NCBI GenBank assembly: GCA_026874595.1
Contig: CM049309.1
Coordinates: forward strand, 15,464,576 to 15,528,575
DNA from: Sipunculus nudus
Taxonomy: Eukaryota; Annelida; Sipuncula; Golfingiida; Sipunculidae
DNA length: 64,000 bases
Direction: 5' to 3'
Part shown: positions 1 through 56,478 of the stretch, in pieces
Layout of the letters: each line of letters opens with the position of its first letter
Numbering within the stretch: the stretch's first letter is position 1
Translations under genes and position numbers: made by a program
Notes under the pieces: model-generated
Databases searched by the model: none
What the model was told of the DNA's origin: nothing
What the model saw: only the letters and a program-made list of their open reading frames with translations

Positions 1-850
1 ACCATGTTTGCACAGTGTCCATCTGTTCGTCTGCCTTGGGTTAAAATCACTCATATCTCTGCAGTGGTTTGACTTATTCACCTGAAATTTGGCATGCGTA
101 TACATCCTGGATAGCTTTTCTGATTTTATGACAGGTGGCGCCACCTACATTCATGTTTATGCTGCAGACATCCAAGCTGATATCTCGGGAACTGTTTGAC
201 CGATTGGGCCAAAATTTTGCATGTGTATAGATCTCACATAGCTCTTTATCATACGCAAAACTGGTGGCGCCACCTGCAGCCATTTTTGCACAGCTCCCAT
301 CTATTTGTCTGCCATTGGATAAAATCACTCATATCTCAGCACTGGTTTGACATATCTGCCTAAAATTTTGCAGGTTTATACATCCCCAACAGCTCTCTTG
401 ATTTTATGACAGGTGGCGCCACCTACATTCTAGTTTATGCAGCAGATATCTAAGCTCATATCTTAGGAACCGTTTGACCAATTGGGCCAAAGTTTTGCAT
501 ATGTATAGTTCTCACATAGCTCTTTATCATATGCAAAACTGGTGGCGCCACCTGCAACCATTTTTGCACAGCGTCCATCTGTTTGTCTGCCAAGGGCAAA
601 AATCACTCATATACATGTAGTGGTTTGACTTATCTGCCTTAAATTTTGCATATGTATACAACTTGGACGGCTTTCTGGATTTTGTGGTAGGTGGCGCAAA
701 CTACATACACAATTTGGCTGCAGACATCCATGCTAATATGCAACACTTCACTCTATTTCCCCTTGCCACTCAATCCATGCCTCACTTCACCCGTTCCACT
801 CTGATTTAGAAGGATACACTTAGTCGCTTGTCGACTACCCGTATTCTAGT
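1..850 (+). mobile_element. Family B Helitron-like element, 3' part (left end outside window)
   Basis: The stretch consists of alternating modules of about 130 and 149 bp. Exact GGTGGCGCCACC palindromes lie at 133-144, 263-274, 412-423 and 541-552, with a decayed one near 690. The end is Helitron-like: stem TAGTCG (821-826), loop CTTGT, stem CGACTA (832-837), an 8 nt spacer, then CTAGT (846-850) followed by T. No coding capacity is visible, so it is a non-autonomous element. The 5' end is not in the window. Confidence 0.75.
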
Positions 851-1112
851 TTTATTATTGATGTTATTAAATGAAATATCAACATTATATATGATGACAT
901 GTTATTATGACGAACATATATCATATTTAATCAATGCATTTACATACTGGTTAAACTAGTAAATGTAAAGTTTTTATAATTTCTTTTGTTATTTAAGGAG
1001 AGATATTTGCTAAATTAAAAAAAAAAGATTTTGCCAGCTTGTTTAAATCAACTAATAAAATGTAGGCTTTACTCAGTTGGAATTACTTTATTTTGCGTGC
1101 TCTTTGCTGTAG
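851..1112 (+). other. AT-rich intron sequence upstream of first visible STPG1 exon
   Basis: This is unique-looking AT-rich sequence between the family B terminus and the splice acceptor at 1112. It has no repeat or gene that I can recognise, apart from the pyrimidine tract just before the exon. Confidence 0.6.
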
Positions 1113-1292
1113 GACCGACGTATCACAAAACATCAGTCCACCTGCAGTCCAGGGCCAGCTTTATATGGACTCCCAGGGACAATAGCATCACGCAAAGATT
1201 TCAACAAAGCAAGCACCAGTGTATTCCACAAGCCCATAGCCCAACCACAAGAGGAGAAAATGGCGAAAATACCTGCTCCAAATCAATATGAA
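1113..1292 (+). CDS. STPG1: STPG1 coding exon (first seen in window), 60 codons, phase 0/0
   Basis: The acceptor is the pyrimidine-rich TGCTCTTTGCTGTAG before 1113 and the donor is GTAAGA at 1293. The exon reads DRRITKHQSTC, then a PG-rich repeat SPGPALYGLPG, a conserved-looking SRKDFNKASTSVF segment, and a second repeat PAPNQYE at its end. Both ends are in phase 0 and the next exon continues openly. No exon is recognisable between the repeat at the left edge and this acceptor, so upstream coding exons lie outside the window. Confidence 0.85.
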
Positions 1293-1626
1293 GTAAGACC
1301 TCTTGCCATAATATGTTTTGTAACAACCTTCCCACTGAATTATATCTGAATTATACCAGGCTGATAGTTTAATATGTTAGATATTATTATGCCTCTATCG
1401 CTTGAGATGCTCCACTCCTATAGCTTTAAACACGATTGTCACTGATTCAGATGTTTAAATACAGTTTTGGGTCAGTTCCCTCTGTCTCTGCAGTCTGCAT
1501 GTAGTTTATTTTTTCAAACATTGCTCAGCTCACATTGAATGTCTATGGGCCTTTTGCAGGGCCTTTCCTGAAACTGTCAGTATTCTAGTTTTTGCCGTTA
1601 ATTATTATCTTTTATATGTATTTCAG

Positions 1627-1898: not shown

Positions 1899-2345
1899 CA
1901 AAGTCTTTTTGTTGGATTTTGAAAGGACCAACAGGATTCTTCACTTTATTTATTAAAAAATTTGAAATGAAACAAGATTAATGCGAAAGTCCTGTCAGAA
2001 GAATTTTTTATGCAGTGAGAGGCTTATGTTACAGAAAATGAAACCAGATTTTTTATTTTAATATATTTTGATGGATGGACCATTCAAGTGACAAGGACAG
2101 TAACAATTAAAAAGTATTTGTAAAATTGTTTAATAACCTTTATGTGTATGTAAGTTATAGTTCCAGTTTGTAACAGCAGGTAGCAGCAGTGGTTGCTTTG
2201 GTAGTTTATACATGTTGGCAGTGAAAGCAAGTGTTCATCCTTATCTCAGCTACTTTTGATGGCCAAGGTTATCCAACATGCAATCCAGTTAATTTACTAA
2301 AATTGCCACAATTCTAAATTTTTGAATTTTTATATTCCTGTTTAT

Positions 2346-2838
2346 GACGGGACATATTGTGCTGTACCCATTATCCATCCATTGTCTGTGCATGATGTTT
2401 AGTGTCGCCTCAATAATTGACCAGGGATTTGATGGATTCTTTTGAAATTCACCCTAACTTCTTACCAATAGACACTCTTGCGTGAGTTCAATTTTAGGCA
2501 GGAACCATGCATATTTAATGAGGTCAGGTCACAAGGCTACTTTGTGGTGTCACCTTGATAACTTAACCAGGAATATGATGGATTTTGATAAAACACCAAA
2601 GAAACTTGCCTAAATTTCATTCCTAACAAAATCCTTGCATATTTAATGAAGTCAGAAGTCACCAGACTTTGGTTGCATCATAATGACTCAGAAAAAAATG
2701 ATGTTCATGAAACTCATTATAAATAATTCCCAGTAGAGTTTCCATATTAATTTAATTCTCTGCAAAACTTGCACATATTAATGAAGACAGAGGTCATAAG
2801 ACATACGACGGGTGTAGTATGTACCCTTGTGGTGCGTT
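2346..2838 (+). mobile_element. Family E non-autonomous repeat, copy 1
   Basis: The head reads GACGGGACATATTGTGCTGTACCC and the tail carries the related GACGGGTGTAGTATGTACCC. Between them are several related modules with phrases such as TTTGATGGATTnTnnTGAAA, GAGGTCAGAGGTCAC-like stretches and CTACTTTGTGGTGTCACC. A second copy at 4214-4743 shares head, modules and tail. There is no coding capacity, and I do not recognise a named family. Confidence 0.6.
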
Positions 2839-2933
2839 TTTTTTCTTTTTCTTTTTTTTTCAGTGAGCATCCGTCATGTACTCCTGTTACATTTCATGAC
2901 TGTGGTCAATTTGTTTTATTCATGTTGTTGCAG

Positions 2934-3037: not shown

Positions 3038-4213
3038 GTGAGTGTTTTTATTTTTGTCCTTAAAGTGGCGCTGTTTGATAACCTATGAAATAATCCTACC
3101 ATAATGTTAAAAATAAATATATCAGGTTTGAAATTCTAACATTTACACAGGTGCCTCAATTAACATCTCCATGACAAAGATCCTGCTTTGACTTAGAACC
3201 AGCCTGCCACTCAGATATCGATATTTAACTTTTGGAGATATCCGGAAGACAGAAAAACCAAAGAGTTGTGACCAGTTCTAAGTTAAGCTGATGTTATTGC
3301 CATTTCTGACCATACACTGTCATGTTCATCTGCTTGTTAAATGTTATTTTCACAATAAGTTACCACATTCAGTATCAAGAACTGAAAATATCACTTCTTA
3401 AGTAACTTTACATAGTTCCATGCCATTATAACTGATAAGGAAGGCTTTTCCATCATGATATTGCTCAAATATCACTTGGATAAACAAATCTTCTTGGAAA
3501 TGGTATGCAAGACTGCAGACTTCATGGGACAGATTTACCTCACAGCTCTGTATCACTCAAAAATGAGAGTATCTGTGGGAGGTTCCTCTGTGTTATGACC
3601 CAGCAATGGGGATGATTACACACCCAGTGCCTGCAGTTGCAGTAGACACCAGGCCTGTGTGGTATCAGGATATAAAAAAGACAGAATGAGTGCTTCTGCC
3701 CTGTCATGTAGCCCCAAAACCGAAATGGAACTCTGCAGATGTAAATACTCAGCATAATAAGTAGATAATTCAGCATAAAAAAAAATGGAGGCTGTTACCC
3801 CTACCAAAAAAAATAAAACAAGCAAATTTGTGGAATTAATGTCCCAGCTTTGGGCTCCTGTTGTCTTTCATGTTTGATAAGCAACCAAAATTATGACATG
3901 TGGAGAAAATTTTGAGGGCACATGAAAACTTAAACAGATCCACCATGACATCCCAGCTCCGTGGATGCGGGGGACAAAAAAAGACTGCCATGGATGTACT
4001 GGGAAAGATTAAATAATTGTACAACCTATATAGGATAAAGGGTCTATATTGATGCTAAGTACAAGTCTGTATTATTATAATTACAAATCTCCCAGAAAAG
4101 AGTGCTTTTTCATGTATCAATATATGAATACACATGAATCCGTTTAAAAAAAAATATAATACTTGTGAACTAGTCTCAGATACCACTGGACTGTTTTTAC
4201 ACGCCTGTCATAT
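3038..4213 (+). other. STPG1 intron sequence, mostly unrecognised
   Basis: AT-rich intron DNA without an exon I can defend. At about 3841-3976 there is a weak, partly inverted resemblance to family I (GTCCC at one side, GGGGGAC at the other, and an AAAATTATGACATGTGGAGA phrase also seen near 28525). Confidence 0.5.
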
Positions 4214-4743
4214 AACGGGAGTAATATGGTATACCCATTGTTTTTTGTTTGTCTGTCCGCCCGTTAACTTTTAGTGTTGCTGCGATAACATACCGGGGCT
4301 TTGATGGATTTTCATGAAACTCGCCAAAACTGCTTACCAACATATTATCTCGCCCATTTTTATTATTGGCAACATCCACACATATTCAGTAAGTTTAAAA
4401 GGTCACTAGGCTACTTTGTGGTGTCACAACGATGACTTACGAAGAATATGAAGGATTTGGATAAAACTCAACAGAAATGTTAATCATTAAAATATCTCGC
4501 CTAAGTTCGATTGCCAGCAAAATCCATGCATATTTAATGAGGTCAGAGGTCACTGCACTTTGAAGGCACCTTAATGACTAATCAAAAATTCTATTGATTT
4601 TCATGAAACTATGTATACATTTTAACCATTGATAGAGTTTCTCACCTGAATTATCTTCTCATTGAAATTTATGCGTATTTAATAAGGTCAGAGGTCACCA
4701 GGTACACAACGGGCGTATTATGCACATTTGCGGTGCTCTTGTT
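4214..4743 (+). mobile_element. Family E non-autonomous repeat, copy 2
   Basis: The head is AACGGGAGTAATATGGTATACCC, followed by GTTTGTCTGTCCGCCCGTTAAC, then a core with CGATAACATACCGGGGCTTTGATGGATTTTCATGAAACTCG. The tail contains AACGGGCGTATTATGC and ends GGTGCTCTTGTTT. The middle repeats the CTACTTTGTGGTGTCAC and GAGGTCAGAGGTCAC phrases of copy 1. Stem-loop head, GTCTGTCCG stretch and degenerate core are the layout shared with other families in this window. Confidence 0.6.
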
Positions 4744-5197: not shown

Positions 5198-5230
<33 letters not shown>

Positions 5231-10329: not shown

Positions 10330-10638
10330 TATGTTGAAAAACACCCATGAATATATACTGTCACATGCTACGTCCTAGTGTTAACAAATTTGATATAAAC
10401 TCATATAAAACACTCATTCCAGGGTTATTTATACTTAGAAATTCACCAAATTTAATCACTTGGAGATTTTCACAATATCAGCATATATGATAAATTTCAG
10501 TAACATCCATGATAATTTTCTGCAAATATCTTTCTTACACACACACACACACACAGAGAATCAAGTGAAAACATGAGCCCTCACTGGATGCAGGGTTTAT
10601 AATATATTATCAATAATAGTAACATATAATTAATTGTA

Positions 10639-12358
10639 TCGCCAGACATAGTCTGGAGATACTATGGTTTAGGCATGGTTGCGCCGCCGCCGCCGCCGAG
10701 ATTTCTTTTGGACACAATAACTCAAAAAATATTTCAAGGATCTTTTTCAAACTTGACACATTTATAGATATAGGTAAGAGGACGAAGCCTATTTAAAATG
10801 GGGTCATGACCTCAACTAGGAGAGTGACCTTGACCTTGAATAGATCCATTTTTGGGGAAAATCACACAAATTCTTAAATATCTCAAGAAATCTTTCATGG
10901 ATTTATCCAAAAATCAAGTTGGACAAAGATCTTGGATAGTGATGTCATGTACCGGAAACTGGTGGTGCCACCTAGTATCCTTTTCTTGTTTTTGTGCCGT
11001 TTAATACCCCCATCATTGCCACTTGACAGTACTTTTAGCATCACAAGTCAAAAACTGATTGACAGATTTCTTTAATATTATGCATGTACATAGGTATGGG
11101 TTATGGGATGATGTATATTAAAATTGGGGTCATGACCTTTCCTTTGAGAGTGGCTTTGACCTTGAATATTACCATATATGGTGAAAATCACATAAAATCA
11201 TGAATATCTTAAAAAGGGATGCATGGATTGGTCCAAAAATCAAGTTGACGGAAGATCTTGAATAGTTTTGTCTTTTGCAGAAGATAGGTGGCGCCACCTG
11301 TTGTCCTTTTCTTGTTTTTTGTGCCTTTGAATACCCCATCATTGCCACTTGACAGTATATACTGTGAGCATTATAAGTCAAACAGTAATGGACAGATTTC
11401 TTTCATGTTATGCATGTATATAGATATGGTTTATGGAATGAGGTATATTTAATTTTAAATTTAATTTTAAAATTTAATTTGAATTTAAATTATTTTTTTT
11501 TTAATTTAATTTTTTTTTTCAATGTTGGATATTTTGGAAAGCAGTTTATTGATTTGGGGTCATGACCGTGACTATGAAAGTGACCTTGACCTTGAATATT
11601 CCCATATTTGGTGAAAAACATAAAATCATGAATATCTTAAAAAAGGCCACTTGACAGCACTGTGAGCATTATAAGTCAAAAACTAATGGACAGATTTCTT
11701 TATATTATGCATATACATAGATTTGGATTCATCCAACTGTTCCCTTTAGTTGTCTACACATCTCAGGTCAAACCCTCTCATACAACAGCACATCTTTCTC
11801 TCTCTAAATTATAAACTCTCCATCATATATACACCCCTCAACAAAGAAACTGATCAGACAAATTTATCATCCACTCATCAGCATTTGCCAATCAACATTT
11901 CCTATACATAGCCATGTAGCAGCCTTCACATCCACCCCTCTAATTACCCAACCCACTTCACACTCCTCAACCAGCAACTCTATCAACCCCCTCCTTGTCA
12001 AAGATAATTATCAACCCCCTGTTACACACTTACACTAACCATTATCATATCTCTCCATCTCTCTGAAATCCTATCTATCCATCTCTTTCTCTTTCTTTCT
12101 GCTTTACTCTATATTATTCTCAAACAAGTTACTCCAAACATACATATACAACTCAATACATCATTAAATATATACTTCTATTTATACATAACCTTTTACA
12201 TAACAATTGCCTTCACTTTAAATATTCCTATATTTTGTACAAATGTTTCTCACATTCATTGCTAAAATACAAATACATCACATTATATCAACAAAATACC
12301 ACAAAACCTCATTTGTCTGGCGATACTATGGCACCAGCGGTGCCAAGAAATGTCTAGT
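10639..12358 (+). mobile_element. Family C Helitron, complete and non-autonomous (1.72 kb)
   Basis: The 5' end is TC (10639-10640) directly after A, and starts TCGCCAGACATAGTCTGG, a small stem-loop. The 3' end has a 7 bp-stem hairpin TGGCACC-AGC-GGTGCCA (12329-12345), 8 nt, then CTAGT (12354-12358) and a T. This is the Helitron signature: A|TC...hairpin...CTAGT|T without target duplication. GTCTGGnGATACTATGG occurs near both ends. Inside are a (GCC)n tract, about three tandem modules of roughly 335 bp with GGTCATGACC (10802, 11129, 11559) and one exact GGTGGCGCCACC near 11287, then a G-poor stretch from about 11740 on. No Rep/helicase coding is present. Confidence 0.85.
12329..12358 (+). other. 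Helitron 3' terminal hairpin and CTAGT end
   Basis: A perfect 7 bp stem with loop AGC is followed by AGAAATGT and CTAGT, and the next host base is T. A subterminal hairpin about 8-12 nt before CTRRT is the classic 3' mark of Helitrons and is thought to stop rolling-circle transfer. Confidence 0.85.
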
Positions 12359-12421
12359 TATATTTATTATTATACTGTACCATCAGTTCGTAAAGACACC
12401 AGTGTTGATTATTTCTGCCAG

Positions 12422-12612: not shown

Positions 12613-12750
12613 GTCAGTCTACTGCTTACATTTGTATTACATACTAATTTTGAAGCCTCCCTCGTAGGGAGGGAGGCTAATCAGGGTTAATTAGTTTATT
12701 TCTATATCAAAATTTTGTGCAAAACCATCAATTGCAAATGTTTTCGCTTT

Positions 12751-13433
12751 TTTAGCCCTCGGCCCTTTGGCTGATGGGCTATTGTTGTCACCAAAGCTGT
12801 CCATCCGTCTGTTCGGCATCCATTAATTTTTACTTTTTGAGCGGGAAATCTCTAAAAGGATTCACTGTAAAAATTTTATTTCTTTGGTGAAGATGTATAT
12901 CGACAAAATCTCAAGTTCAAAGATAACCTATATTTCTATGTTTAAGAGCTGATTATTGAAAAACACTTAGAAGCTTATTTCTCAGAACCATTGGGTGGAT
13001 TTTCACAAAACTTACTATGGCCATTGGGACTGCTGCACAAGTTTGGTGGAGCCACCGACATTTCTGATTTTTAATGAATTTTTATTGGATTTTTCAACTT
13101 TGGCCTTGTGCGCACGATATCTCCAAAGGTATTCAACACAGGAACTTCATTTCTTCAGTGGTGATGCATATTTACAAAATCTTGGTCAATTGAAAAGATG
13201 GGTGATCTTGACCATCTTTTCAAGGTCACAGAGCTAAGAATAGAAAAAAAACTTAAGAGCTTATTTCTCAGGAGGCATTTGGTGGATTGTTATGAAACAT
13301 GGTACATACCTCTCCAGTTGAAATTTTTAACTGAGACGTACAGACATACATCTATGTGAGAACAATATTTCATACTTGTTACTGTTACCACCTATAAACA
13401 CTGTTCTTTTGGCTGAGGGCTTCTGCTGATATT
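12751..13433 (+). mobile_element. Family D non-autonomous repeat (Helentron-like layout)
   Basis: It starts TTTAGCCCTCGGCCC, forming a stem-loop with GGCTGATGGGCTATTG. It ends with the inverted counterpart TTGGCTGAGGGCTTCTGCTG. Downstream of the head come GTCCATCCGTCTGTTCGGC and related core modules (GAACCATTGGGTGGATTTTCACAAAACTTAC near 12980; a second at about 13270). There is no coding capacity. Subterminal inverted repeats near both ends without target duplication resemble Helentron-associated elements, but this is inference. Confidence 0.55.
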
Positions 13434-13436: not shown

Positions 13437-15975
13437 TTTTTTAGCTCAGGTGACTATAAGTCTTCTGAGCTATAGTCGTGGTCCTTTGTCTGTCGTCCGT
13501 CCGTCCGTTAACAGGGCACGTTTTTAAACCGTTGGACCAACGATTCCAAAAATTTGCATACCATTAGATATCCCCAAAATCTCCTACCATACCGAAAATT
13601 GGGTCATAAGGACTTCGTTCCTTATAGATATTAAGGAAAAACCTCCATTTTCCATAAAAAAGCCATTGTTACACTTCAAGGCTGCCCAATAGCAAAACCA
13701 CTGATCTGTTTTTGATCGTATTTAGTAGTATTCACATTCTTTCATACATTTTCTATGAACATACAAAAAATTAAGTCAGTGTTGGGTATTATTTTGAAGT
13801 TATGGGCCAAAATGTAATGCAATTTAAAAAAAATCAGGAAATATATTTACTCACCTAACATGAGAGTTGCTGAAGCTAGAGACTTTTTTTCAGGAATATA
13901 ACTTTATTTAATCAAGATTCAATTGTTTACCCAAAATTATATCTGAATTTTGCAAATTTTTCAAGTTATTAGCATAAATAAACAATCAATACCTTAAATT
14001 TTGTCCAACTTTGGCAATGGCACATTTTTTCCCTGTATGCACTGTTGATTTAATTTTCACAGCATATATATACATAAGGATTTAATCTTTTAAAATCTGA
14101 AATTTCAAAGGAATTGATTGAAAAGAGTAGCTTTTATTCAAGTTTTCATACACCATGTCAAGTGTTGTTTACATCTAGCCCACCTAGTAGTACAGCCTTC
14201 ACTTGCATTATGTAACCCACCCCAGGAAGCTAGCCTTGGCTCAGCTTGGCCACTACCAGCAGGCTTTCCCTCTGCCCTGCACTCCCCTCCCCCCCCCCCC
14301 CCCCCCCCCATCCAGATGTTGCATAAACTGGATGAATGTTATTATTTTCCGTATTTGATTCATTCTTATTCTAGGCTATGCTACATTTTACATTTTGTAT
14401 TGTACCACCAGGGTTACAATGATTAAAGTGCACCTTTAAATGTGTCCACAAAGTGGTGTATTGCTATGAAAGTGTGGATGTTCATCAGATAAGTAATTCC
14501 TTACTTCAGAAGAGTAAAAACTTCACCAGGTGTGAAATTGACTATTAATTCCAGTAATTAATTAAAGCTGGGATAGTAATTAGCACAATGATATTGTTTG
14601 TCCCTCATTCAACCGACAGTGTGTATACTTTATTTGAAAAGATGTTTTATTTTATCAAATTTACTGAATCTTTTATTTTATTTCGGTGAATAAAATTAAG
14701 CATATACTGAAAACTCCAATGTGCAAAACTTTTTAATAGTGATTGAAGGAATAATCTTATAGATGCCATGTTGTGGCATTATTTTCTTTTAAATTCAGTT
14801 GAAACATTTGTGATTTAAAAATAATAAAATATATGTGGATTATGACCCAATATGAGCTACACTCTGGATATATAATGATTGCAAATTTTGCAACAATTCT
14901 AATATTTTAACTTATATTTTCAGTTTTTTTTTACTCTGTATATATAATGATTGCAACTTTTGCAACAATTCTAATATTTTAACTTATATTTTCAGTTTTT
15001 TTATTAAAAATTTAAAAAACTTGTAAATAAAAAAATGATTCAGATAAAAACTTCTTAATGGAAAAAGTGGATATGCTAAAAAAAAGGCTTATGTATAAAC
15101 TTAAATGCAGTGAAATAAAGGTATTAGTCCATTCTGTCCACTTGCCTGTCCATCTGTAAATTTTCATATGCATCACAGTATCTCAAAACTTTTACTTTTT
15201 TCCTTCATGACAGTCTTGTCAGAGTATTAGTTTGCAATCATATATTTAGAACTTTACTACAACCAAGTAGGAGGGCCCCTTTACTCTTAGCTTCTCATAT
15301 TCTTATATAAATGAAAAACATTATAGAATATTTCTACAACCACCTCCATGCTGCCCTCACTTTTCCCTTCTCTGAACCCCATCTCAAAGTCAGCCTCAGT
15401 AAACAAGAACAAGATGAATCAGATATATTCATACTTTAAAATTTTGTATAACTATTCGTCCATAGGTACTTATGTACATGCCAGAAATTATGTCAATATT
15501 GTGTAATATGTAGACATAGTGGGCATCACAATAATGTACCTTGTCAAGACTAAAGAGATATTGTGTCATACAGTCACAAATTCATAAAAATCTCTTCATC
15601 AGCATAGTTAATCATAACATCATATCTATCAAATTGAAAGCTTGCAGACTCCCATACACTTTAGATCCTTCATCAAATAGCCTTATCATCATTCTACTAC
15701 TGCTTATTACAGCTGTCATTGCATTCATATTTGCTAAAATATATCACAATTTTCAACCCCTCCTAAATAAATAAACCACTATATTTTACTCTATTAATCC
15801 CTCAGTCAGGTAATTTCATTTATCATTTACTCACATATTACATTACATTCCTTTATAATAGCCCAACATGTCCATGATATTCATAAGCTTTATCAACTTG
15901 ATATAGGATCACAGTGGAGAAACATTTATAGTCCAATCACAATCAGCTGAGTGCCGTGACCCATGGGTCCCTTGT
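13437..15975 (+). mobile_element. Family A element, copy A1 (about 2.5 kb)
   Basis: The head TTTTAGCTCAGGTGACTATAAG folds on TCTTCTGAGCTATAG and is followed by GTCTGTCGTCCGTCCGTCCGTT. The tail has ATCAGCTGAGTGCCG, the hairpin GACCCATGGGTC and CCTTGT before TT. The subterminal AGCTCAG...CTGAGCT inversion and terminal hairpin fit a Helentron-like rolling-circle element. The last 600 bp are poor in G. A closely similar inverted copy lies at 32239-35372. No transposition protein is encoded; a short Cys/His-rich frame (15452-15553) and a hydrophobic frame ending near 15774 are shared by both copies. A C-run lies at 14285-14309. Confidence 0.7.
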
Positions 15976-17274: not shown

Positions 17275-17665
17275 CCGGAAATGAAGGCCACAGGCCCATA
17301 GTTTTTTATCTGCATTAATTTAGATTTTATAGAGAAAAAGCTTAAAAACCTTTAAAAATCTTTTTCTCTGAAACTGTCCAGCCAAATTGTCCAATATTTC
17401 ACAGAAATGATCCCTGGAACAATCTCTCACAAGTTTGTTCGAATGGTTCCAGTTCGGAGATTTTTGGCCGAGTTACAGGAGGTTGAACTTAGTCATATGT
17501 CCAAAAAAACACACTAAAATTAAAATCTCAGAAACGGCTAGAGCTATAATCACCAAATTTTATACCAATGTTTGTCACATATGTCATATCTGATTTTTAG
17601 GTATTGGTGGCGCCACCTTCATTGATGTGTTTTTTACAAGTGAAAATGTAATTTTAAACTCTTCT
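17275..17665 (+). repeat. Family F repeat module
   Basis: It starts near a GGCCACAGGCC palindrome and continues with phrases such as TCTCTGAAACTGTCCAGCC, GATCCCTGGAACAATCTCTC and GGTTCCAGTTCGGAGATTTTTGGC. The same phrases recur in order at 22990-23330. One exact GGTGGCGCCACC stands near 17607. It is probably part of a larger composite repeat; its exact borders are not visible. Confidence 0.55.
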
Positions 17666-17922
17666 AGCTTATACACTGATTTATGATGAAACTGTTAAGC
17701 TGATTGGTTTAAACTTTACAAGAATTATTCTATGGTAGGGTTCTGCTAGTTTTATAAGAATAGATTGGGTAAATACAGTTTTAAAAAAACATTGTAGCCA
17801 ATTGAAAAAGGCTTTCTGTATTTGAAAACAGATTTGAGTTTCAGCAGCCAAGTCAAGAGGTCAATCAGTACAAACAGGTGGGGTCCAGACATCACCATGG
17901 CAACTGACCTGGCTCGGAGGGA

Positions 17923-18069: not shown

Positions 18070-19402
18070 AGGTCACATGTGAACTGCTGCGCCCTCTTTT
18101 TTGGTTGACCTCTGACCTTTCCTCGCTGCCTAGCGTCCATTTGTGCGTCTGTTTCCACACATAAACCCGCATATCTCGGGAACCATTTGACCGATCAGGC
18201 TAAAAATTTAGCACAAACGTAGCCCTCTGATAGCTTTATAACATACACTAAAAATGGTGGCACCACCTGCAACCATTTTTGCACAGCGTCCATCTGTTCA
18301 TCTGCCTTGGCGTAAAATCACTCATATCTCAGCAGTGGTTTGACTTATCCACCTGAAACTATGCAGGTTTATACATCCAGGAAAGCTTTCGATTTTATGA
18401 CAGGTGGCGCCACCTACATTCACGTTTACTCTGCAGACATCCAAGCTCATATCTCGGGAACCGTTTGACCGATTGGGCCAAAATTTAGCATGTATATAGA
18501 TCTCACATAGCTCTTCATCTTAGGCAAAACTGGTGGCGCTACCTGCAACCATTAATGCACAGCACCCATTTGTTCATCTGCCTTGGGATAAAATCACTCA
18601 TATTCTCAGAAGTGGTTTGACTTATCCACCTGAAATTTAGCAGGTTAATACATCCTGGAAAGCTTTCTCGATTTTATGACAGGTGGCGCCACCTACATTC
18701 ATGTTTACTCTGCAGACATCCAAGCTCATATCTCGGGAACCGTTTGACCAATTGGGCCAAAATTTTGCATGTGTGTAGATCTCAAATAGCTCTTCATCAT
18801 AGGCAAAACTGGTGGTGCCAACTGCAACCATTAATGCACAGCACCCATCTGTTCATCTGCCTTGGGATAAAATCACTCATATCTCAGAAGTGGTTTGACT
18901 TATCCACCTGAAATTTTGCAGGTTTATACATCCTGGACAGCTTTCTCGATTTTATGACAGGTGGCGCCACCTACATTCACGATTACTCTGCAGACATCCA
19001 AGCTCATATCTCGGGAACCATTTGACCGATTGGGCCAAAATTTTGCTTGTGTATAGATCTCACATAGCTCTTCATCATAAGCAAAACTGGTGGTGCCACC
19101 TGCAACCACTTATGAAAAGCGTCCATCTGTTCATCTGCCTTTGGATAAAATCACTCATATCTCAGCCGTGGTTTGACTTATCCACCTGAAATTTTGCAGG
19201 CAGGTTTATACATCCTGGACAATTTTCTCAATTTATGACAGGTGGCACCACCTACATTCATGTTCACTCTGCAGATATCCATGCTAATATGCAACACACC
19301 TCACTCTATTCCCCATGCCACTAAATCCATGCCTCACTTTACCTGTCCCACTCTGATTTCTGCGGATACACATAGTCGCTGGTCGACTACCCATATTCTA
19401 GT
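18070..19402 (+). mobile_element. Family B Helitron-like element, copy B2
   Basis: It opens near GGTCACATGTGAACTGCTGCGCC and GACCTCTGACCTTTCC, then carries eight GGTGGCRCCACC joints at alternating spacings of about 148 and 130 bp (near 18255, 18403, 18532, 18681, 18813, 18959, 19088, 19240; several exact). It ends with stem TAGTCG, loop CTGGT, stem CGACTA, 8 nt, CTAGT (19398-19402) and T. Homology to other copies continues a little upstream of the stated start, so the true 5' end is uncertain. No coding capacity. Confidence 0.75.
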
Positions 19403-21715: not shown

Positions 21716-22190
21716 TTTGGACACTTATTGTTCAGATGTTGAATTTACATAGTTCTGTTTCTGAATATAATCACTTACAGTTTGTAGCTGTGTACAGTGT
21801 ATAGTGTACAGTTGAAAATAGGTGAAAATGGATTTTTGCTTATGAATTATTGAAATTATTAAAAACACTGCTTCAAACTAGACGGAAAGCCGATGAAGTA
21901 AACCAAGATCACTCTGGCTTCATTCAAAATAAAGGTTCTAGACTTAGTGCCAAACTGCATAATGGTGGCTTTGGTGTTCAGGCCCTCATTACAGAGTGGG
22001 CATGGTTGCTGCTGCTCTTCTGGTGCGTCCCACTTCTATTCTTGACCATGGTGCCTTGCATTCTGGAGCTAACCTGGGGAGGGGTCTGGATACCTTTGTG
22101 CTTTGCATGGAGTTTCATCAACAAATACGTTCAAAGACTTAGCTTATATTTCTCCTTACAGTATTTAGAAGCCAAACACTGGGAAACCGG
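21716..22190 (+). other. Intron sequence, nothing recognised
   Basis: No feature supported, apart from open frames without family resemblance. Confidence 0.5.
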
Positions 22191-22989
22191 TTTTTAGCTC
22201 AGCTGACTTTCAGTCATGCTGAGCTATAGCAATCACTCTTTGTCCGTCTGTCTGTCCGTTAACCTGGTTACCTGGCACAAATCGTAACCGCTGGACTTAG
22301 AATTTTGTAACTTGACATTCTGAGAAGTCGATGAAAAATCTCCTTGGAAACCAGAAATTAGGTCTCTGTTACCCATATCCTTCGAGCTATTGGGCCCCAA
22401 AGTACCCCCCAGGATAGTCAAAAATTTCATACAAAAATCTCGCTAACTACATCACTGATGGTCATGATTTTCGGCATACATATTGATCATGAGATGTTCC
22501 ATCAGTTCCTGCAGTCTGGTGGCGCCACCTGTATTTTTCGATTTTTTACGAATTTTTTTCTCTATTTTTGAGACGTTTAAAAATGTGAACATCTGTTAAC
22601 AGGGCACAAATCGTAAAAACTGGACCTAGAATCTTCATTCTTGACACAGTGAGGAACCTATGAAAAGCCTCCATGGAAACCAGAAATTAGGTCTCTGTTA
22701 CCCATCTCCTTCGAGCTATGGGGCCCCAAAGTACCCCCCAGAATAGTAAAAAATTTCATACAAAAACTTCAAAATCTCATTAACTACATCACTGATGGTC
22801 ATGATTTTTGGCATACATATTGATCATGAGATGTTTCATCAGTTTCTGCAGACTGGTGGTGTCGTGCGTCATCTGTACGTTAACCGTAGCTATTTCAAAA
22901 ACGGCAGGAGCTAGCATCACCATATTTTTTGCAAATAATCAGTCATCCAAAAAACTATATCGGATTTTGATTATTTTTTTTCTAACTGC

Positions 22990-23860
22990 ATTTTCTTAGA
23001 TTTTATAGGGAAAAAGCTAAAAAAGCTTTAAAAATCTTCTTCTCCGAAACTGTCTAGCCAAATTGTCCAATATTTCACAGAAATGATCCCTGGAATGATT
23101 TTTCCAAAGTTTGTTCAAATGGTTCCAGTTCGGAGATTTTTTGCCGAGTTACAGGAGGTTGAACTTTGTTAACTGTGCAAAAGAGCATATTAAAATTTAA
23201 ATCTCAGAAACCGCTGGAGCTATCATCACCAAATTTTATGCCAATGTTGTTCACATAGGTCATATCTGAAATTGAGGTATTGGTGGCACCACCTGCGTCG
23301 GCCTTTTTTGTACAGGGTCATCAGTGCCTGTATCACACTGAGGGCTACAAAAAACTTCTTCTCTGAAAACCATATGGCCAAAATGTTTAACATCGCACAG
23401 AAATGATCCTAGGGTAGTGCCTTCTGAAGTTTGTTCAAATGGTCTCTTTTCAGTGACTTTTGGCTAAGTTATGGGAAGCTGAATTTAGTCATATGCCATA
23501 ACAGCCCATTTTAGCTCAGTGGCTACAAAGATCTTCTCCTCAAAAACCACTGGGCCAAATTCTTAAAATCTCACATATTAATTATCCTCAGATGTTGATA
23601 ATTCAAGTTTGTTCAAATGGTTTTGGTTCAGCGCTTTTTGGCTGTCAATTACGGGAAGCTGAACTTATCCAGTTTGCTGTATCTTCCTGTATGAGTTATA
23701 AACCTGTGAAACATTTTTCGACTAATGCCACTAAAGCCATTTTGTTAAATATTTTACAAGAATAATCCCTACAATAATTCTTATAATAATTGTCATTAAT
23801 GGTTCCACATGAATGATTTTTGGCTGAATTATGGAGATTGAATTGAGTCGTTTTACCATA
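22990..23860 (+). repeat. Family F modules in tandem inside copy A3
   Basis: Roughly four diverging units of 165-190 bp repeat the phrases CTnCTCTGAAAnC, CACAGAAATGATCC, AGTTTGTTCAAATGGT and TTTTTGGCnnAGTTA. The first unit closely matches 17334-17540. Later units are more decayed. Confidence 0.6.
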
Positions 23861-24399
23861 TATGTCAGCTGTGTTATGCTGTTACATCTAGCCTGGCACC
23901 AGTTTATCAGCATCTATTACATCATGCCACTAGACATTAAATTTCAGGTTATCTTTGGTTAATATTGACAAGAAAGTTTTTTTTAAAAGCTTTTAAAAAA
24001 TTTAGATTTATGATTCAAGTTATTCATCATACCAGGCAATGTTACAATCATGGATATTCAGCTCTCTGTGGCTATATAAAGACAACGGTATGTGGATTAT
24101 AAATTATTGGTATCCCCACTCAACTTAATTCAAGAATTTGCCATTAATGAGATATATCTGTATTTTAATTTTGCATTCAGTATGCATCCATAATAATTTT
24201 ACATATATTCCTGATATTTTTTTTTATAAAAAGTCAGCTGAAAAACATCTTGTATTGGGAAAATAAATTTCAAAGTTATTTCAAGTAGGGACCACTTTTG
24301 TGTACAGATGGCAGCACGTGGTTTACCATTGGCAGATTGCCAGTGCCTTGATGTTGGCCATTAGCCAAGATGATGTCAACTCAATAAATAGAAAGCTTT

Positions 24400-25245
24400 C
24401 TAACATACACTAAAAATGGTGGTGCCACCTGCAACCATTTTGCACAGCGTCTATCTGTTCATCTGCCTTGGGATAAAATCACTCATTATCTCTGCAGTGG
24501 TTTGACTAATTCACCTGAAATTTTGCATGTGTATACATCCTGGACAGCTTTCTTGATTTAATGACAGGTGGCACCACCTACATTCACGTTTAAGCTGCAG
24601 ACATCCAAGCTCATATCTCGGGAATGTTTTACCAGTTGGGCCTAAATTTTGCATGTGTATAGATCTCCCATAGCTCTTTATTATACGCAAAACTGGTGGT
24701 GCCACCTGCAACCATTTTTGCACAGCGTCCATCTGTTCATCTGCCTTAGGATAAAATGACATATCTTTGCAGTGGTTTGACTTATCCACCTGATATTTTG
24801 CAGGTTTATACATCCTTGACAGCTTTCATGATTTTATGACAGGTGGCGCCACCTACATTCAAATTTACGCTGCAGACATCCAAGCTCATATCAGGAACCA
24901 ATTGACCGATTTGGCAAAAATTTTGCATGTTTATAGATCTCACATAGCTATTTATCATACGCAAAAGCGTCCGTCTGTTTGTTTACCGTGGGATAAAATC
25001 ACTCATATCTCGGCAGTGGTTTGACATATCTGCCTAAGATTTTGCAGGTTTATACATCTTGGATAGCTTTCTGGATTTTGTGGCAGGTGGCGCCACCTAC
25101 ATTTATGTATACGCTGCAGACATTCAGGCTTATATCACAGAACTGGTTTGACATATCCCCCTGAAATTTTGCATGTGTATAGATCTCACACATAGCTCTT
25201 AATCATACACAGAATTGGTGGTGCCACCTGCCACCATTTTTGCAC
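24400..25245 (+). repeat. Family B modules (B3) without a Helitron terminus, inside copy A3
   Basis: GGTGGnGCCACC joints recur at the usual alternating spacing, with exact palindromes near 24841 and 25085. The block stops after CCACCATTTTTGCACAAC, before the hairpin and CTAGT seen in other copies. It is a truncated or exchanged block rather than a full insertion. Confidence 0.6.
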
Positions 25246-26102
25246 AACATCGGTTTAGTGTTTAGTACTTGCATTGTTCATATACATGTTACACATGTTC
25301 TTGAAAAGTTATGGTCCAGCATTGAAGCATTATACCTGGTGTAATCTCGATGCATAGGTTCGCAATAGGCCTGTAGGCCTTGTTTCAAATTTTTACAATT
25401 TTTTTTTCTCTATTTATGAGACCTTTCTGGATGTAGTTATCTGTCAACAGGGTACAAATCGTAATGACCGGACCTAGAATCTTCATTCTTGACACACAGG
25501 GAGACCCATGAAAAGTCTCCATGGAAACCTGAAATTAGGTCTCTGTTACCCATATCCTTTGAGCTATGGCACTCCAAAGTACAGCTCGGAATAATGGATA
25601 ATTTGATACAAAAGCTGAAGTATCTGAACAACTAAAGCAGAGATCACCATAATTGTGTGCATGGATATTAATCATGGAATGTTTCATCAGTTTCTGCAGA
25701 CTGGTGGCACCACCTATAAAAGTGCCTGTGGAAACCTGAAATAAGGTCTCTGTTTCCCATATCCTTCGAGCTATATGACTCCGAAGTTTCCCTCAGAATA
25801 ATGAACAATTTGATACAAAAGCTGAAGTATCTGAACAACTAATGCAGAGATCACCATGATTCTTTGCATGGATATTGATTTCATCAGTTTCTGCCGACTG
25901 GTGGTGCCACCTTTATTTTATTCAATTTTTCAAATTTTTTTCTCTATTTTTTAGATATATAAATACAGACACAATCTTGGCCTGTTGGTTAATCTGTTTG
26001 ATGCTTCAGTTGAATGGGTATATACTACCATTCAGATGATAAAATTTCCTTTTGCGAATCTCTTCGCAGTCAGCTGAGCGTCATGACCCAAGGGTCACTT
26101 GT

Positions 26103-30479: not shown

Positions 30480-31787
30480 CAATCCACCTCCGCCGCTGCG
30501 TAGGTGTCCCAAGAAGGCCTACGTAACCACTGGGCGGAATTTTATGAAACCCGGGATTATGTTCGGGTCACATGTGAACTGCTGCGCCGCGATTTTATTA
30601 TGACCTCTGACCTTTCCTCTCTCCAGTGCGTCCATCTGTGTATCTGTTTTGACACATTAATCCACATATCTCAGGAACCGTTTGACTGATCCGGAAAAAA
30701 ATTTTGCACAAATGTAGCCCTTGGATACCTTTATAACAAACATAAAAAATGGTGGCGCCACCTGCAACCCTTTTGGCACAGCGTCCATCTGTTCATCTGC
30801 CTTGGGATAAAATCACTCATATCTCTGCATTGGTTGGACTTATCCACCTGAAATTTTGCATGTGTTTACATCCTGGACAGCTTTCTTGATTTAATGACAG
30901 GTGGCGCTACCTACATTCATGTTTACGCTGCAGACATCCAAGCGCATATATTGGGAACCGTTTGACCGATTGGGCCAAAATTTTGCATGTGTATAGGTCT
31001 CACATAGCTCTTTATCATACTCAAAACTGATGGTGGCACCTGCAACCATTTATGCACAGCATCTGTCTGTTTGTCTGCCGTGGGATAAAATCACTCCTAT
31101 CTCGGCACTGGTTTGACTTATCTGCCTAAAAATTTTGCAGGTTTTTACATCTTGGATAGCTTTCTAGATTTTGTGGCTGGTGGCGCCACCTACATTTGTT
31201 TACACTGCAGACATCCAGGCTTATATCTCAGGAACCGTACTCCAACCATTTTTGCACAGTGTCCGTCTGTTTGTCTGCCATGGAATAAAATCACTCCTAT
31301 CTCAGCAGGGGTTTGACTTATCTGCCTAAAATTTTGCAGGTTTATACATCTTGGATAGTGTTCTTGATTTTAGGTGGCGCCACCTACATTCACAATTATG
31401 CTGCAGACATCCAAGCTCATATCTCGGGAACCGTTTGGCCTATAGGGCCAAAATTATGGCATGTTTATAGATCTTACATATCTCTTTATCATATGCAAAA
31501 CTGGTGGCGCCACCTGCAGCCATTTTTGCACAGCGTCCGTCTGTTTGTCTGTCATGGGATAAAGTCACTCATATCTCGGCAGTGATTGGACTTTTGCATT
31601 TGTATATAACTTTGATAGCTTTATGGATTTTTTGGTAGGTGGCACAACCTACATACACATTTTGGCTGCAGACATCCATGCTAATATGCAACACACCTCA
31701 CTCAATTTCCCCTTGTTACTCAATCCATGCCTCACTTCACCAGTCCAACTCTGATTTTGGCTGATACACAAAGACGCTTGTACTAGT
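30480..31787 (+). mobile_element. Family B Helitron-like element, copy B4
   Basis: The left part begins near TCCACCTCCGCCGCTGCG, a phrase also found left of copy B5. It is followed by GGGTCACATGTGAACTGCTG and the alternating modules. Exact GGTGGCGCCACC stand near 30751, 31181, 31374 and 31503. The 3' end has lost the hairpin (AAGACGCTTGTA) but keeps CTAGT (31783-31787) before T. Boundaries on the left are approximate. Confidence 0.7.
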
Positions 31788-47707: not shown

Positions 47708-47723
47708 AAAGTCATCTGAGCTA
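47708..47723 (+). repeat. LINE target-site duplication, right copy
   Basis: Exact 16 bp copy of the left duplication. Removing the LINE and one copy restores the unbroken head of a family A element as seen at 22200-22235. Confidence 0.85.
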
Positions 47724-49465
47724 TAGCGATCACTCTGTGTCCGTCGTCCGTCTGTCTGTCCGTCTGTCCGTTAACCAGGCACAAATCGTAACCGCTGGAC
47801 TTAGAACCTTGTAACTTGGGATTCTGAGAGGTCCATGAAAAATCTCCTAGGAAACCAGAAATTAGGTTTCTGTTACCCATATCCTTCGAGCTATGGGGCC
47901 CCAAAGTACCCCCCAGAAAAGTAAAAAATTTCATACAAAAACTTCAATATCTCATTAACTACTTGACTAATGGTCATGATTTTTGGCATACATATTGATC
48001 ATGAGATGTTCCATCAATTCCTGCAGACTGGTGGCGCCACCTGTATTTTTAGATTTTTTACAATTTTTTTTCTCTATTTTTTAGACCTTTAAAAATGTGA
48101 ACATCTGTTAACAAGGCACAAATCGTAAAGACTGGACCTAGAATCTTAATTCTTGACGCACTGAGAGGTCCATGAAAAATCTTCTTGGAAACCAGAAATT
48201 AGGTCTCTGTTACCCATATCCTTCGAGCTATGGGGCCCCAAAGTACCCCCCAGATTAGTCAAAAATTTCATACAAAAACTTCAATATCTCAATAACTACA
48301 TCACTGATGGTCATGATTTCTGGCATACATATTGATCATGAGATGTTCCATCAGTTCCTGCAGACTGGGGGCGCCACCAGTATTGTTCGATTTTTTACCA
48401 TTTTTTCCTCTATTTTTGAGACCTTTAAGGATGCTGTCATCTGTTAACGTGGCACAAATCGTAACGACTGGACCTAGAATCTTCATTCTCCCCACACTGA
48501 GAGAACTATGAAAAGTCTCCATGGAAACCAGGAATTAGGTTTCTGTTACCCATATCCTTTGAGCTATTGGACCCCAAAGTACCCCCCAGAATAGTCAAAA
48601 ATTTCATACAAAAACTTCAATATCTCATTAACTACATCACTGATGGTCATGATTTTTGGCATCATGAGATGTTTCATCAATTTCTGCAGACTGGTGGCGC
48701 CACCTGTATTTTTCAATTTTGACGAATTGTTTTCTCAATTTTTGAGACCTTTAAAAATGTGAACAGCTGTTAACAGGGCACAAATCATAAAGACGACCTA
48801 GAATCTTCATTCTTGACACACGGAGAGGTCCATGAAAAGTCTCCATGGAAACCTGAATTAAGGTCTCTGTTACCCATATCCTTTGAGCTGGGGGGGGGGG
48901 GCTCCCAATAACCCCCCCCCCCCCAGAATAATGGAAAATTTGATAAAAAAACAAACTGCAACATCTCAATAACTACAACACTGATGGTCATGATTTTTGG
49001 CATACATATTGATCAAGAGGTGTTCCATCAGTTCCTGCAGACTGGTGGCGCCACCTGTATTTTTCAAATTTTCACAATTTATTTTCTTTATTTTGAGACC
49101 TTTAAGGATGTAGTTATCTGTCAACAGGGTACAAATCGTAACGACTGGACCTAGAATCTTCATTCTTGACACATAGGGAGACCCATGATAAGTCTACATG
49201 GAAATCTGAAATTAGGTCTCTGTTACCCATATCCTTTGAGCTATGGCACTCTAAAGTACAGCTCAGAATAATGGAAAATTTGATACAAAAGCTGAAGTAT
49301 CTGAACAGCTAATGCAGAGATCACCATAATTGTTTGCATGGATATTGATCATGGAGTGTTTCATCAGTTTCTGCAGACTGGTGGCACCACCTGTATTTGT
49401 TTGGGTTTTTTCACGAAATTTTTCTCTATTTTTGAGACCTTTAAAGATATGAACATATCTTTACC

Positions 49466-50588
49466 GGGTTCCTCCGCCGCTGCCACGTTCATTTCCAGAG
49501 AGCTCCTCTGAGACTAATGGACCGATTTTTCCGAAACTTACACAAATTATCGGGTCACATGTGAACTGGTGCCTAACCAATTTGCGTTGACCTCTGACCT
49601 TTCCTCTCTATCCAGCGTCTATTTGTGCGTCTGTTTCCACACATAAACCCTCATATCTCGGGAACCGTTTGACCGATCAGGAAATAAAATTTATACAAAT
49701 GTAGCCCTTGGATTGCTTTATAACATACACAAAAAATGGTGGCTTCCTGTAACTATGTTTGCACAGTGTCCATCTGTTCATCTGCCTTGGGTTAAAATCA
49801 CTCATATCTCTGCAGCGAATTGACTAATTTACCTGAAATTTGTCATGCGTATACATCCTGGATAACTTTCTTGATTTTATGACAGGTGGCACTACCTACA
49901 TTCACGTTCACGCTGATGACATCCAAGCTCATATCTCGGGAACCGTTTGACCGATCAGGAAATAAAATTTATACAAATGTAGCCCTTGGATAGCTCTATA
50001 ACATACACAAAAAATGGTGGCGCCACCTGTAACCATGTTTGCACAGTGTCCATCTGTTCATCTGCCTTGGGTTAAAATCACTCATATCTCTGCAGTTAAT
50101 TGACTAATTCACCTGAAATTCGGCATGCGTATACATCCAGGATAGCTTTCTTGATTTTATGACAGGTAGCGCCACCTACATTCTAGTTAACGTTGCACAC
50201 ATCCAAGCATTTGACCGATTGGGCCAAAATTGTGCATGTGTTTAGATCTCCTATAGGTCTTTATCATACACAAAACTGGAGGGGCCACCTGCAACCATTT
50301 TTGCACAGCGTCTGTCTGTTTGTCTGCCGTGGGCTAAAATCACTCATATACTTGTAGTGGTTTGACTTTTCTGCCTAAGATTTTGCGTATGTATACAACT
50401 TGGACAGCTTTCTGGATCTGTGGTAGGTGGCACAACCTACATACACATTTAGGCTGCAGACATCCATGCTAATATGCAACATACCTCACTCTACGTCCCC
50501 TTGCCACTCAATCCATGCCTCACTTCACCCGTTCCACTCTGATTTTGGCGGATACATGTAGTCACTTGTCGGCTACCCGTATACTAGT
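49466..50588 (+). mobile_element. Family B Helitron-like element, copy B5, nested in copy A4
   Basis: It starts near CCTCCGCCGCTGCC and GGGTCACATGTGAACTGGTG, runs through alternating modules (one exact GGTGGCGCCACC near 50015), and ends with a degenerate hairpin TAGTCACTTGTCGGCTA and CTAGT (50584-50588) followed by T. Family A sequence continues directly afterwards (TTTCTCTTTTTTTGAGATAT), which supports insertion into A4. The 5' border is approximate. Confidence 0.65.
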
Positions 50589-50782
50589 TTTTAAAGTTTA
50601 CACATTTTTCTCTTTTTTTGAGATATATAAATACAGACTAAATCTTGGCCTGTTGGTTAATCTGTTTGATGCTTCAGTTGAATGGGTATATACTACCATT
50701 CTGATGATAAAAATTTCCTTTTGCGAATCTCTTCCCAGTCAGATGAGCGTCATGACCCATGGGTCACTTGTAAGTAGTGGTG

Positions 50783-54429: not shown

Positions 54430-55526
54430 GCTGCAACCATTTTTGCACAGCGTCCTTCTGTACATCGGCCTTTGGTTAAAATCCTTCGTATCTCTGCAGT
54501 GGTTGGACCTGCAATTCTGCAAGTGTATACCTTCTGGATAGCTTTCTTAGTTTTATATCAAGTGGCGCCACCTACATTCAAGTTCAGGCTGCAGACATCC
54601 AGGCTACTATCTCAAGACTAGTTTGACGTATCCCCCTGAAATTTTGCATGTGTATAGATCTCACATTGCTTTTTATCATACGTAACACTGGTGGTGCCAC
54701 CTTTAACCATTTTTGCACAGCGTCCGTCTGTTTGTCTGCCATGGGATAAAATCACTCGTATCTCGGCAGTGGTTTGACTTATCTGCCTAAAATTTAGCAT
54801 GTATCTTGGGTAGCTTTCACGATTTTATGGCAGGTTGCGCCACCTACATTTATGTTTACGCTGCAGACATCAATGCTAATATTTCAGAACTAGTAAGACG
54901 TATGAGCATGAAATTCTGCATGCGTATAGAGCTGACATATCTCTTTATCATACACATTGTGTGACAAGCGGGTGGCGCCACTTGCAACCATTTTTGCACA
55001 GCGTTTGACCTTTGGATCAAAACACTCATATCTCAGAAGTGGTTTGACTTTAAAAAAATTGCTTATGTTTACATCTTGGATAACTTTCTAGGCGCCACTT
55101 ACATACACATTTCGGCTGCATACATCCATGCTATTATCTCAGGACTGGTTTGTCGTATCGGCCTGACATTTTGCATGAGTAAAGATCTTCCATAGCTCTA
55201 CAGCTTATACAAATTTGGTGGCCCAACATACAACCATTTTTGCATGGTGTCCATCTGTTCATCAGCCTAGGGTATAAACCACTCATATCTCAGCAGTGGT
55301 TTGACTTATCCACCTAAAACTTTGCATCTGTATACATCTTTAATAGCTTTCTCTTTCAAATATCAGGTGGCGCCGCCTACAATCATGTTTTCATGGCAGA
55401 TATACATGCTAATATGCAACACATCACACGTTATTTCCCCTTGCCAGTCAATCTATGTCTCATTTCACCCGTCCCATTCTGATTGGCGGATACACGTAGT
55501 CGCTTGTCGACCACCCGTATTCTAGT
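54430..55526 (+). mobile_element. Family B Helitron-like element, copy B6, diverged
   Basis: The alternating modules are recognisable but more decayed, with AGTGGCGCCACC near 54562 and GGTGGCGCCGCC near 55367 at the joints. The end keeps GTAGTCGCTTGTCGACCAC, the spacer and CTAGT (55522-55526) before T. The left border is uncertain. Confidence 0.65.
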
Positions 55527-56014
55527 TAAATGTATATATTATTCATATGTATTAACTATATATGTTAATTATGCATGTATATGTTTTATTTAATATATTA
55601 TATTATACTATATATAAAACATATGCATAATACATGCATTCATATAACGGCTTGATTTTTGTATTCTAATCAAATACACCACGCCTGTTCCCTTTGCGCA
55701 CTCCTGCTGGTTGGGGGTATTGATTTCATTATATCTAACATGTATACATGCTTTCCACGGGGCATATAGAATTGTGTTAAATCCCCGTTGGACTGTGAGC
55801 AGCCAGTTTATTCGCCAATAACATTAAGTGGATAAGCCTGTCCTAACAGTGGCGAGCCCCGAAATCCCCGGGGGTTGCTGGTCAGATCATCTTCCGTTGG
55901 CCTCCCGGTCGAGGAGAGGACATTGGTGGTCAGGAAATATGTCTTATAAAATAATTATATTCATACGGCATCCGGTATTAAATCAACTCTTGCGGTGTCC
56001 ACCATTTTTCATAA
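55527..56014. other. AT-rich foldable stretch and unrecognised sequence
   Basis: At 55560-55635 ATGCATGTATATGTTTTAT and the complementary ATAAAACATATGCATAAT can pair across a TA-rich loop. The rest is unrecognised. Confidence 0.45.
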
Positions 56015-56478
56015 TTATAGTTCATCTGACTCTGCCGTGTTACGCTATATATATAGCGATGGGTAGGCCTATTTGTCGGTCTGTCCTTCCGTCCGTTAGC
56101 AGGGCAAATCCTAACCGTTAGACGGCCTAGAGTGTTGTAACATCAAGTAAATTCAGACAAAATCTTTTTGGAAACCTAAAATTAGATCAGAGTCAACTAT
56201 ATTTTAGGAGCTACGTAGCTAAAACACGCCTTTGTGTACCAGGATGAAACATGATAATTATAATAATATAACCTAATTACCTTAATTACACATGCCCATC
56301 AGCATGCAGTTTGCACGCTATTTAGAGTGAAAATCATCATATATAATTGCTCTATAATTCTTACATCGATTGCCTTAATTTTTCATGCATGTCACAATGA
56401 TTATTTTGAGTCGTCAATGTAGGCTATATGGCCAAGTTTGTCAGCTGTGCGCTATGACTCATGGGTATACATGAGTCC
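56015..56478 (+). mobile_element. Family A element, degenerate short copy (A5)
   Basis: A decayed head (TTCATCTGACTCTGCCG, then GCTATATATATAGCGATGGG) leads into GTCGGTCTGTCCTTCCGTCC and GTTAGCAGGGCAAATCCTAAC. The tail GTCAGCTGTGCGCTATGAC, CATGGGT follows after about 400 bp. Confidence 0.5.

Follow-up and report, generated by a model that had tools for sequence, protein, structure and literature searches.

Two short boxes at a set distance recur in the repeat arrays of HINE-type elements with unlike ends in Sipunculus nudus

Mobile elements that look unrelated at their ends may still share something within them, which raises the question of what exactly is shared and why it has been kept. The stretch of the Sipunculus nudus genome considered here (64,000 nucleotides, positions 15,464,576 to 15,528,575 of contig CM049309.1, hereafter the window) is a case in point. 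An initial annotation saw in it several families, each with its own stem-loop head and all with one layout and a loose core, and proposed either that a module is exchanged among rolling-circle elements or that the core is selected. Further analysis, with genome-wide counts referring to a host assembly of 1.43 Gb in 153 contigs, establishes that the window is crowded with non-autonomous rolling-circle elements of the HINE type. Together with the arrays and fragments that accompany them, they are listed below; 'palindrome' refers to a 12-bp sequence, GGTGGCGCCACC, to which we return.

1..850, + strand: 3' part of a family A element that starts outside the window; palindromes at 134, 263, 412 and 541, and at 690 with two mismatches
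2341..2845, + strand: family E element, delimited by eye, without the palindrome module
4200..4742, + strand: family E element, delimited by eye, with a weak core at 4300-4325, without the palindrome module
10634..12359, + strand: family D element, ends taken from genome matches; palindromes at 10961 and 11287; second core-like subunit at 11048-11095
12748..13430, + strand: family C element; palindrome variant at 13045; shorter spacer; second core-like match at 13263-13305
13437..15975, + strand: B2 element with B-like ends; core at 13527-13569; without the palindrome module
17280..17720, + strand: fragment of array type X; palindrome at 17606
18130..19402, + strand: family A array and 3' end; eight palindrome sites (up to two mismatches) within 18256-19241
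22190..22900, + strand: family B head and B units; palindrome at 22518
22901..23950, + strand: array type X, adjoining the preceding B units; palindrome variant at 23282
24390..25250, + strand: family A array fragment
25400..26102, + strand: family B units and 3' end; palindrome variants at 25703 and 25900
28262..28655, + strand: family F element, delimited by eye; core unsupported; without palindrome
30439..31787, + strand: family A element with head and tail
47711..50771, + strand: family B element with 336-bp units; palindromes at 48030, 48693 and 49044, variants at 48367 and 49380
49470..50587, + strand: family A element nested in the family B element 47711..50771, whose tail resumes 3' of it
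54430..55526, + strand: family A element, diverged, with its 3' end kept

Among the best 40 of some 4,000-6,600 candidates scored in each genome search, copies of family A are 95-96% identical and those of family D, compared across their initial 1,100 bases, 97-98%; family C is older, its copies being mostly 79-87% identical. Tandem periods are 278 bp in A (1-739), 336 bp in B (47770-49456) and 326 bp in D (10793-11449). These periods resemble dimers of a 140-168-bp unit, and second core-like subunits are present in D and C at the places listed above. The window further contains tandem repeats unconnected with what follows, at 51135-51253 (28 bp), 20301-20523 (39 bp) and 60447-60570 (about 21-24 bp), and, between the D and C elements, a proline-rich, exon-like frame (12424-12612), whose 62-aa peptide, read by eye, had no match in a Pfam scan.

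The layout was established on family A, of which 20 genome copies were fetched with their flanks. The head GTATCCGCCAAAACAGAGTTTTGCGGATAC (up to four edits), with TT before it, is present in 18 of them, the other two starting later. It is made of a subterminal and an internal inverted repeat, and leads into a (CCG)n microsatellite and then the array. Beyond the array lie GGCGGATAC, the palindrome GTAGTCGCTTGTCGACTAC and the 3' terminus, CCGTATTCTAGTT or a near variant in 20/20 copies, after which the flanking DNA is dissimilar. The available parts of the published accounts describe such a plan for HINEs of mite and Drosophila (PMC4067079) and of oyster (PMC7492417). The 5' subterminal repeat with a nearby internal inverted repeat was found as the hairpin of 18/20 A copies and, by eye, in D, B and C; the microsatellite and central tandem repeats are there; the 3' subterminal repeat followed by a short palindrome was found in the tail of 20/20 A copies and by eye in D and B; TT is found at both ends of A (3' in 20/20, 5' in 18/18, the latter counted by eye). 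Family D follows this A-like plan, with its ends placed by genome matches and its tail by eye, and family B does so by eye, while the tail of C shows no visible palindrome. Hence the layout is not new: wherever ends can be defined it is real, yet already known as that of HINEs, the non-autonomous Helentrons. A canonical Helitron, with 5' TC, a 3' hairpin plus CTRR and A/T insertion, was considered and rejected for family A, as copies end with a hairpin and CTAG, yet begin with TTG(T/C)ATCC and are flanked by TT.

Of the features reported initially, the hairpins at the heads, the stretches rich in GTC and the tandem arrays were borne out: GTCTGTCCGTC (up to two mismatches) occurs 36 times on the + strand and 11 times on the - strand, against a mean of 2.2 and a maximum of 6 in 50 shuffles. 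The remark that no description of such a class was known gives way to the published HINEs, as far as the available parts of PMC4067079 and PMC7492417 go. Its single class also puts E and F, where the palindrome is absent, alongside A, B, C and D, where it is present. As for the heads, said to be all different, they were compared like the tails in 21 pairs, with 500 shuffles per pair, rather than placed in trees, these ends being short and unlike. No shuffle was as good for heads A-D, B-B2 and E-F, two were for D-E and for B2-E, and nine for B2-F; for the remaining 15 of the 21 pairs at least 54 of the 500 were. Heads are unlike in most pairs, as claimed, but A-D, B-B2 and E-F (with D-E and B2-E) are alike, the likeness of E to F, and others that involve E or F, coming in part from the common GTC stretch. 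Among tails, B-B2 (0) is the sole pair to stand out.

Autonomous relatives were sought through the RepHel domain (PF14214), which has 143 matches in the genome, 14 of them in stop-free open frames of at least 1000 aa (among the best 150 of 195 candidates); these frames, at least 14 in number, suggest autonomous elements that may have been active recently. A blastn comparison of two RepHel regions with the window found no shared ends, although short ends may escape it, and GGTGGCGCCACC (up to one mismatch) was absent around autonomous RepHel genes in two 15-kb regions and four shorter loci. One RepHel region (L068/L069, C11:50376501-50391500, - strand) carries a 69-bp repeat of about 17 copies that runs into the start of a 2,235-aa frame, with a separate 147-bp array 4 kb downstream.

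The loose core is unevenly distributed. A profile seeded with two A units gave 39 matches in A regions (E <=0.0014); of the next 17 listed matches, 12 fell in D, B, X, B2 and C arrays, all on the + strand, and the other five elsewhere, three of them on the - strand. When families were left out one at a time, the palindrome being removed and the best score compared with dinucleotide shuffles, none of 500 shuffles was as good for X, C and B2 (13441), one was for D and five for E, at a place (4300-4325) cited in the initial annotation. For B the figure was 34 of 500, non-significant alone, and F gave no match. A variant run with some B units misplaced gave 0/200 for B, X, C and B2, 3/200 for D, 2/200 for E and nothing for F, and put the best E match at about 4453-4487, away from the former place. 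The expectation that the core would beat shuffled sequence was thus upheld in X, C, B2 and D, and weakly in E; the view that B and F also carry it holds for B2, but not in this test for B alone nor for F, where a core at 28360-28410 had been proposed. These p-values are only indicative, because in 28 kb of supposedly element-free window one match (32721-32752) exceeded all 100 shuffles; in the variant run 8 of 60 shuffles equalled the best score of this region. The stretch may hold an unannotated element, or the core test may be lenient. Exact core patterns had no match in viral_contigs and genome_contigs, collections of viruses and prokaryotes with little bearing on animals. Two other roles were considered and set aside: coding by the A1 module, which meets a stop after 16 codons in the frame from ATATCTC (by eye, in that frame), and structured RNA, the window having no Rfam match at gathering score.

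The strongest signal, overlooked in the initial annotation, is the 12-bp palindrome GGTGGCGCCACC with ATCTC at a set distance. The window holds 20 exact sites, 42 with up to one and 49 with up to two mismatches (one of the 49 lying within the GCC-rich stretch of the D head, at 10677), where shuffled windows average 0, 0.05 and 0.3, with no exact site in 20 shuffles. Sites lie in the arrays of A, B, C, D and X; none was found, up to two mismatches, in the E, F and B2 elements of the window, so that the palindrome is dispensable for some HINEs there. The genome as a whole holds 111,729 copies of the exact word, while its reversal is found 14 times. Over the 221,537 bases of loci that were fetched, 164 sites (up to one mismatch) fell inside A-D matches and three outside, a count biased by the choice of most loci as A or C copies; by eye, these three adjoin core-like sequence, upstream in register in L036 and in a neighbouring unit in L011 and L035. 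Five random 10-kb stretches contained six sites, all six in A.

Unit consensuses place the first base of ATCTC (TTCTC in C) 81 nt upstream of the palindrome in A1, B, C, D and X, and 79 nt upstream in unit A2; the C consensus was made from 37 genome units, the copy in the window having a shorter spacer. Around 122 exact palindromes of the fetched sequence and the window, 83 ATCTC lie at 79-83 nt, against 27 at 8-76 or 86-112 nt with both strands summed, and 16 of these 27 sit at 32 nt, as the TAGATCTC part of A1. The pattern ATCTC-N76-palindrome occurs 27,865 times in the genome (13,899 + 13,966), to be set against 0 + 0 for the reversed pattern, a hand expectation of about 240 from base composition, and the local distance histogram; the 16 matches listed include, by eye, A1, B, C, D and X types. 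In 20 stretches sampled close to the beginning of C1 there are 35 palindromes, of which 15 have enough core-strand sequence; 12 of these 15 have a box variant at 79-83, the exceptions being a changed box in L076 (150) and L083 (152), and L089, at 94. In 19 further or completed single sites, a box variant stands at 79-83 in 15/19 on the core strand and 1/19 on the other, with L072, L084, L086 (GTCTC at 81) and L107 as misses. Under neutral simulation, five equal spacer lengths have P <=0.0005 at indel/substitution ratios of at least 0.05 and P 0.016-0.023 at a ratio of 0.02, the ratio measured in 20 A copies being 11/267 = 0.041; this simulation used a star tree and boxes picked by the analyst. 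A spacer length range of at most 2 has P 0.077 or 0.007 at a ratio of 0.05, which makes the argument from spacing a moderate one.

How much of the remaining unit is also shared? Between six unit consensuses, identity is 0.95 in the palindrome, 0.71 in the ATATCTC block, 0.47 in the remaining core, 0.39 in the spacer and 0.34 and 0.41 in the flanks, the alignment behind the 0.95, 0.71 and 0.34-0.47 values having been disturbed by the window C copy with its shorter spacer. With the 37 genome units of C used instead, the middle of the core is in register between families (0.417, where none of 32 shifts exceeds 0.330), and there is a slight excess of observed identity over the shifted maximum in the spacer (0.319/0.302), downstream (0.365/0.352) and upstream (0.367/0.344). 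Diverged spacers have a mean identity of 0.42, against 0.27 by chance, so that plain descent accounts for part of the likeness. Judged from these alignments, the entire monomer is probably homologous but strongly diverged, with about 1.1 substitutions per site. Within family A, mutations were counted in 20 copies (that of the window and 19 of the 20 fetched, the divergent L057 being excluded). In the palindrome, 10/1000 positions outside CpG are changed, against 169/14231 elsewhere, and 13/200 CpG positions, against 75/859 elsewhere; CpG mutates about seven times faster than other positions in these copies (75/859 against 169/14231). Inserted A copies decay freely, boxes included. The palindrome, centred on CpG, nonetheless persists between families, and since inserted copies are unprotected, selection on the boxes, if real, must act in source elements. 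The selection proposed initially is favoured by two short boxes (0.95 and 0.71) with equal spacing in five consensuses, but finds no counterpart in a constraint on inserted copies.

Several processes other than selection could have left such a pattern. Neutral common descent, from an ancestral HINE monomer inherited by all families while their ends changed with their partners, would explain why the module stays in register in its middle part, and less clearly in spacer and flanks, why the A and D heads are related, and why inserted copies are unconstrained. The boxes would then survive by chance or low mutability. Yet identity is concentrated in the boxes, the palindrome contains a fast-decaying CpG and its other positions change no more slowly than the remainder of A (10/1000 against 169/14231), and spacer lengths are equal, which makes this account rather unlikely. 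Exchange of the unit among HINE families, through recombination or template switching, would fit a module common to A, B and C despite their unlike ends, as well as B and B2, alike at their ends with palindrome units only in B. In its recent form it is unsupported because units cluster by family and sequence outside the boxes is far diverged (0.34-0.47). In a tree of analyst-chosen units, local support is 0.88 for A against the rest, 0.97 for A2, 0.91 for B, 0.97 for C, 0.99 for D and 0.99 for X; the A1/A0 split has 0.57-0.62, and the order among B, C, D and X 0.06-0.75. An old exchange would be compatible with this divergence, but exchange in general seems to us very improbable.

A different type of explanation looks to the palindrome itself. 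CTCF binds asymmetric sites, with CCASYAGRKGGC as consensus. Unit consensuses match it at 8-10 of 12 positions, which might point to CTCF-type sites (GGTGGCGC) spread by the elements. The best match in B, however, lies off the palindrome, what is kept is a symmetric 12-mer, and its flanks are unlike between families; with 8-10/12 at best and unconserved flanks, where an asymmetric consensus of at least 12 positions would be expected, the candidate was rejected and deserves hardly any credence. Alternatively, the palindrome could act as a DNA structure, folding in the single-stranded rolling-circle intermediate, promoting template switching and thereby building and keeping arrays. In favour of this, the sites are perfect 12-bp palindromes within tandem arrays, and, from the available parts of the sources, the clam element DTC84 is reported to have a palindrome near repeat junctions (PMC5139131) and a stem-loop copying model has been discussed (PMC8268682). 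But one particular sequence is kept rather than any palindrome, mutations in the palindromes of the window are unpaired (by eye), and the ATATCTC box and its spacing would be left unexplained; we regard a structural role as quite improbable.

We prefer a reading, with a probability of roughly 0.45, in which selection on source elements has preserved the two boxes of an ancient monomer and the distance between them, probably as a site for protein binding. This single monomer would be the ancestor of all the arrays in A, B, C, D and X. It would have retained the ATATCTC block together with the 12-bp GGTGGCGCCACC at a distance of 81 nt (79 in A2), while the intervening DNA diverged. Source elements retaining both boxes would have spread better. 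The palindrome is a predicted site of a dimeric DNA-binding protein, encoded by the host or by the element, and ATATCTC would be a second contact, about 84 bp away from centre to centre. Binding may aid the copying or the upkeep of source elements, much as a bound protein holds a box in drifting satellite monomers. That a pair of boxes stands at a set distance in families with unlike ends suggests, at the level of sequence, that something recognises it; the binding role itself, acting on source elements, is a tentative prediction, somewhat short of even odds. Still more doubtful, and on the whole improbable, is a further step, in which several rolling-circle families that retained, or converged on, one putative host DNA-binding factor would have seeded the genome with over 100,000 copies of the two-part site. 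If this were true, the elements would exploit a host factor, and the genome would now hold a dispersed network of its sites. Internal repeats of the Helentron type are generally regarded as passengers; if the pair is kept at a set distance in otherwise drifting arrays, these repeats do work for the element. The 12-mer and its spacing provide an exact probe for a putative binding factor and for other genomes.

In known systems, the CENP-B box is a short box held by a bound protein in satellite monomers that otherwise drift. It differs from the present pair in sequence, and the arrays seen here are dispersed inside transposons. In literature text, as distinct from figures and supplements, GGTGGCGCCACC was found only in an unrelated context and six core strings were absent; the literature searched yielded no description of two boxes that keep a set distance in families whose ends are unlike. 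Closest in plan, in the available parts of the sources, are Cg_HINE of Crassostrea gigas (PMC7492417), HINE-Mo and DINE-1 (PMC4067079), with the same 5' subterminal and internal inverted repeats, a microsatellite (GTCY, GTCC or GTCK in oyster), central tandem repeats, a 3' subterminal repeat with a palindrome, and a preference for TT; the portions of these two papers that describe HINEs mention no box pair at fixed spacing. In oyster HINEs the repeat type is tied to the flanks, and there is a group in which the flanks are related but the repeats are not (from part of PMC7492417), unlike S. nudus, where a single module runs across unlike ends. The BIV160 and Cg170 (HindIII) satellites and the pearl elements have monomers of about 160-170 bp in arrays, partly within such elements, where periods here are 278, 326 and 336 bp; BIV160/Cg170 also have two conserved motifs in diverged monomers, a likeness by description only (PMC5139131 and PMC7492417, in part). 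DTC84 of Donax trunculus has a conserved palindrome in its repeats, likened again by description only (PMC5139131, in part). Compared by description, from the available parts of these accounts, the conserved monomer segments of oyster and clam and the palindrome of DTC84 are the nearest precedents of the box pair (PMC7492417, PMC5139131).
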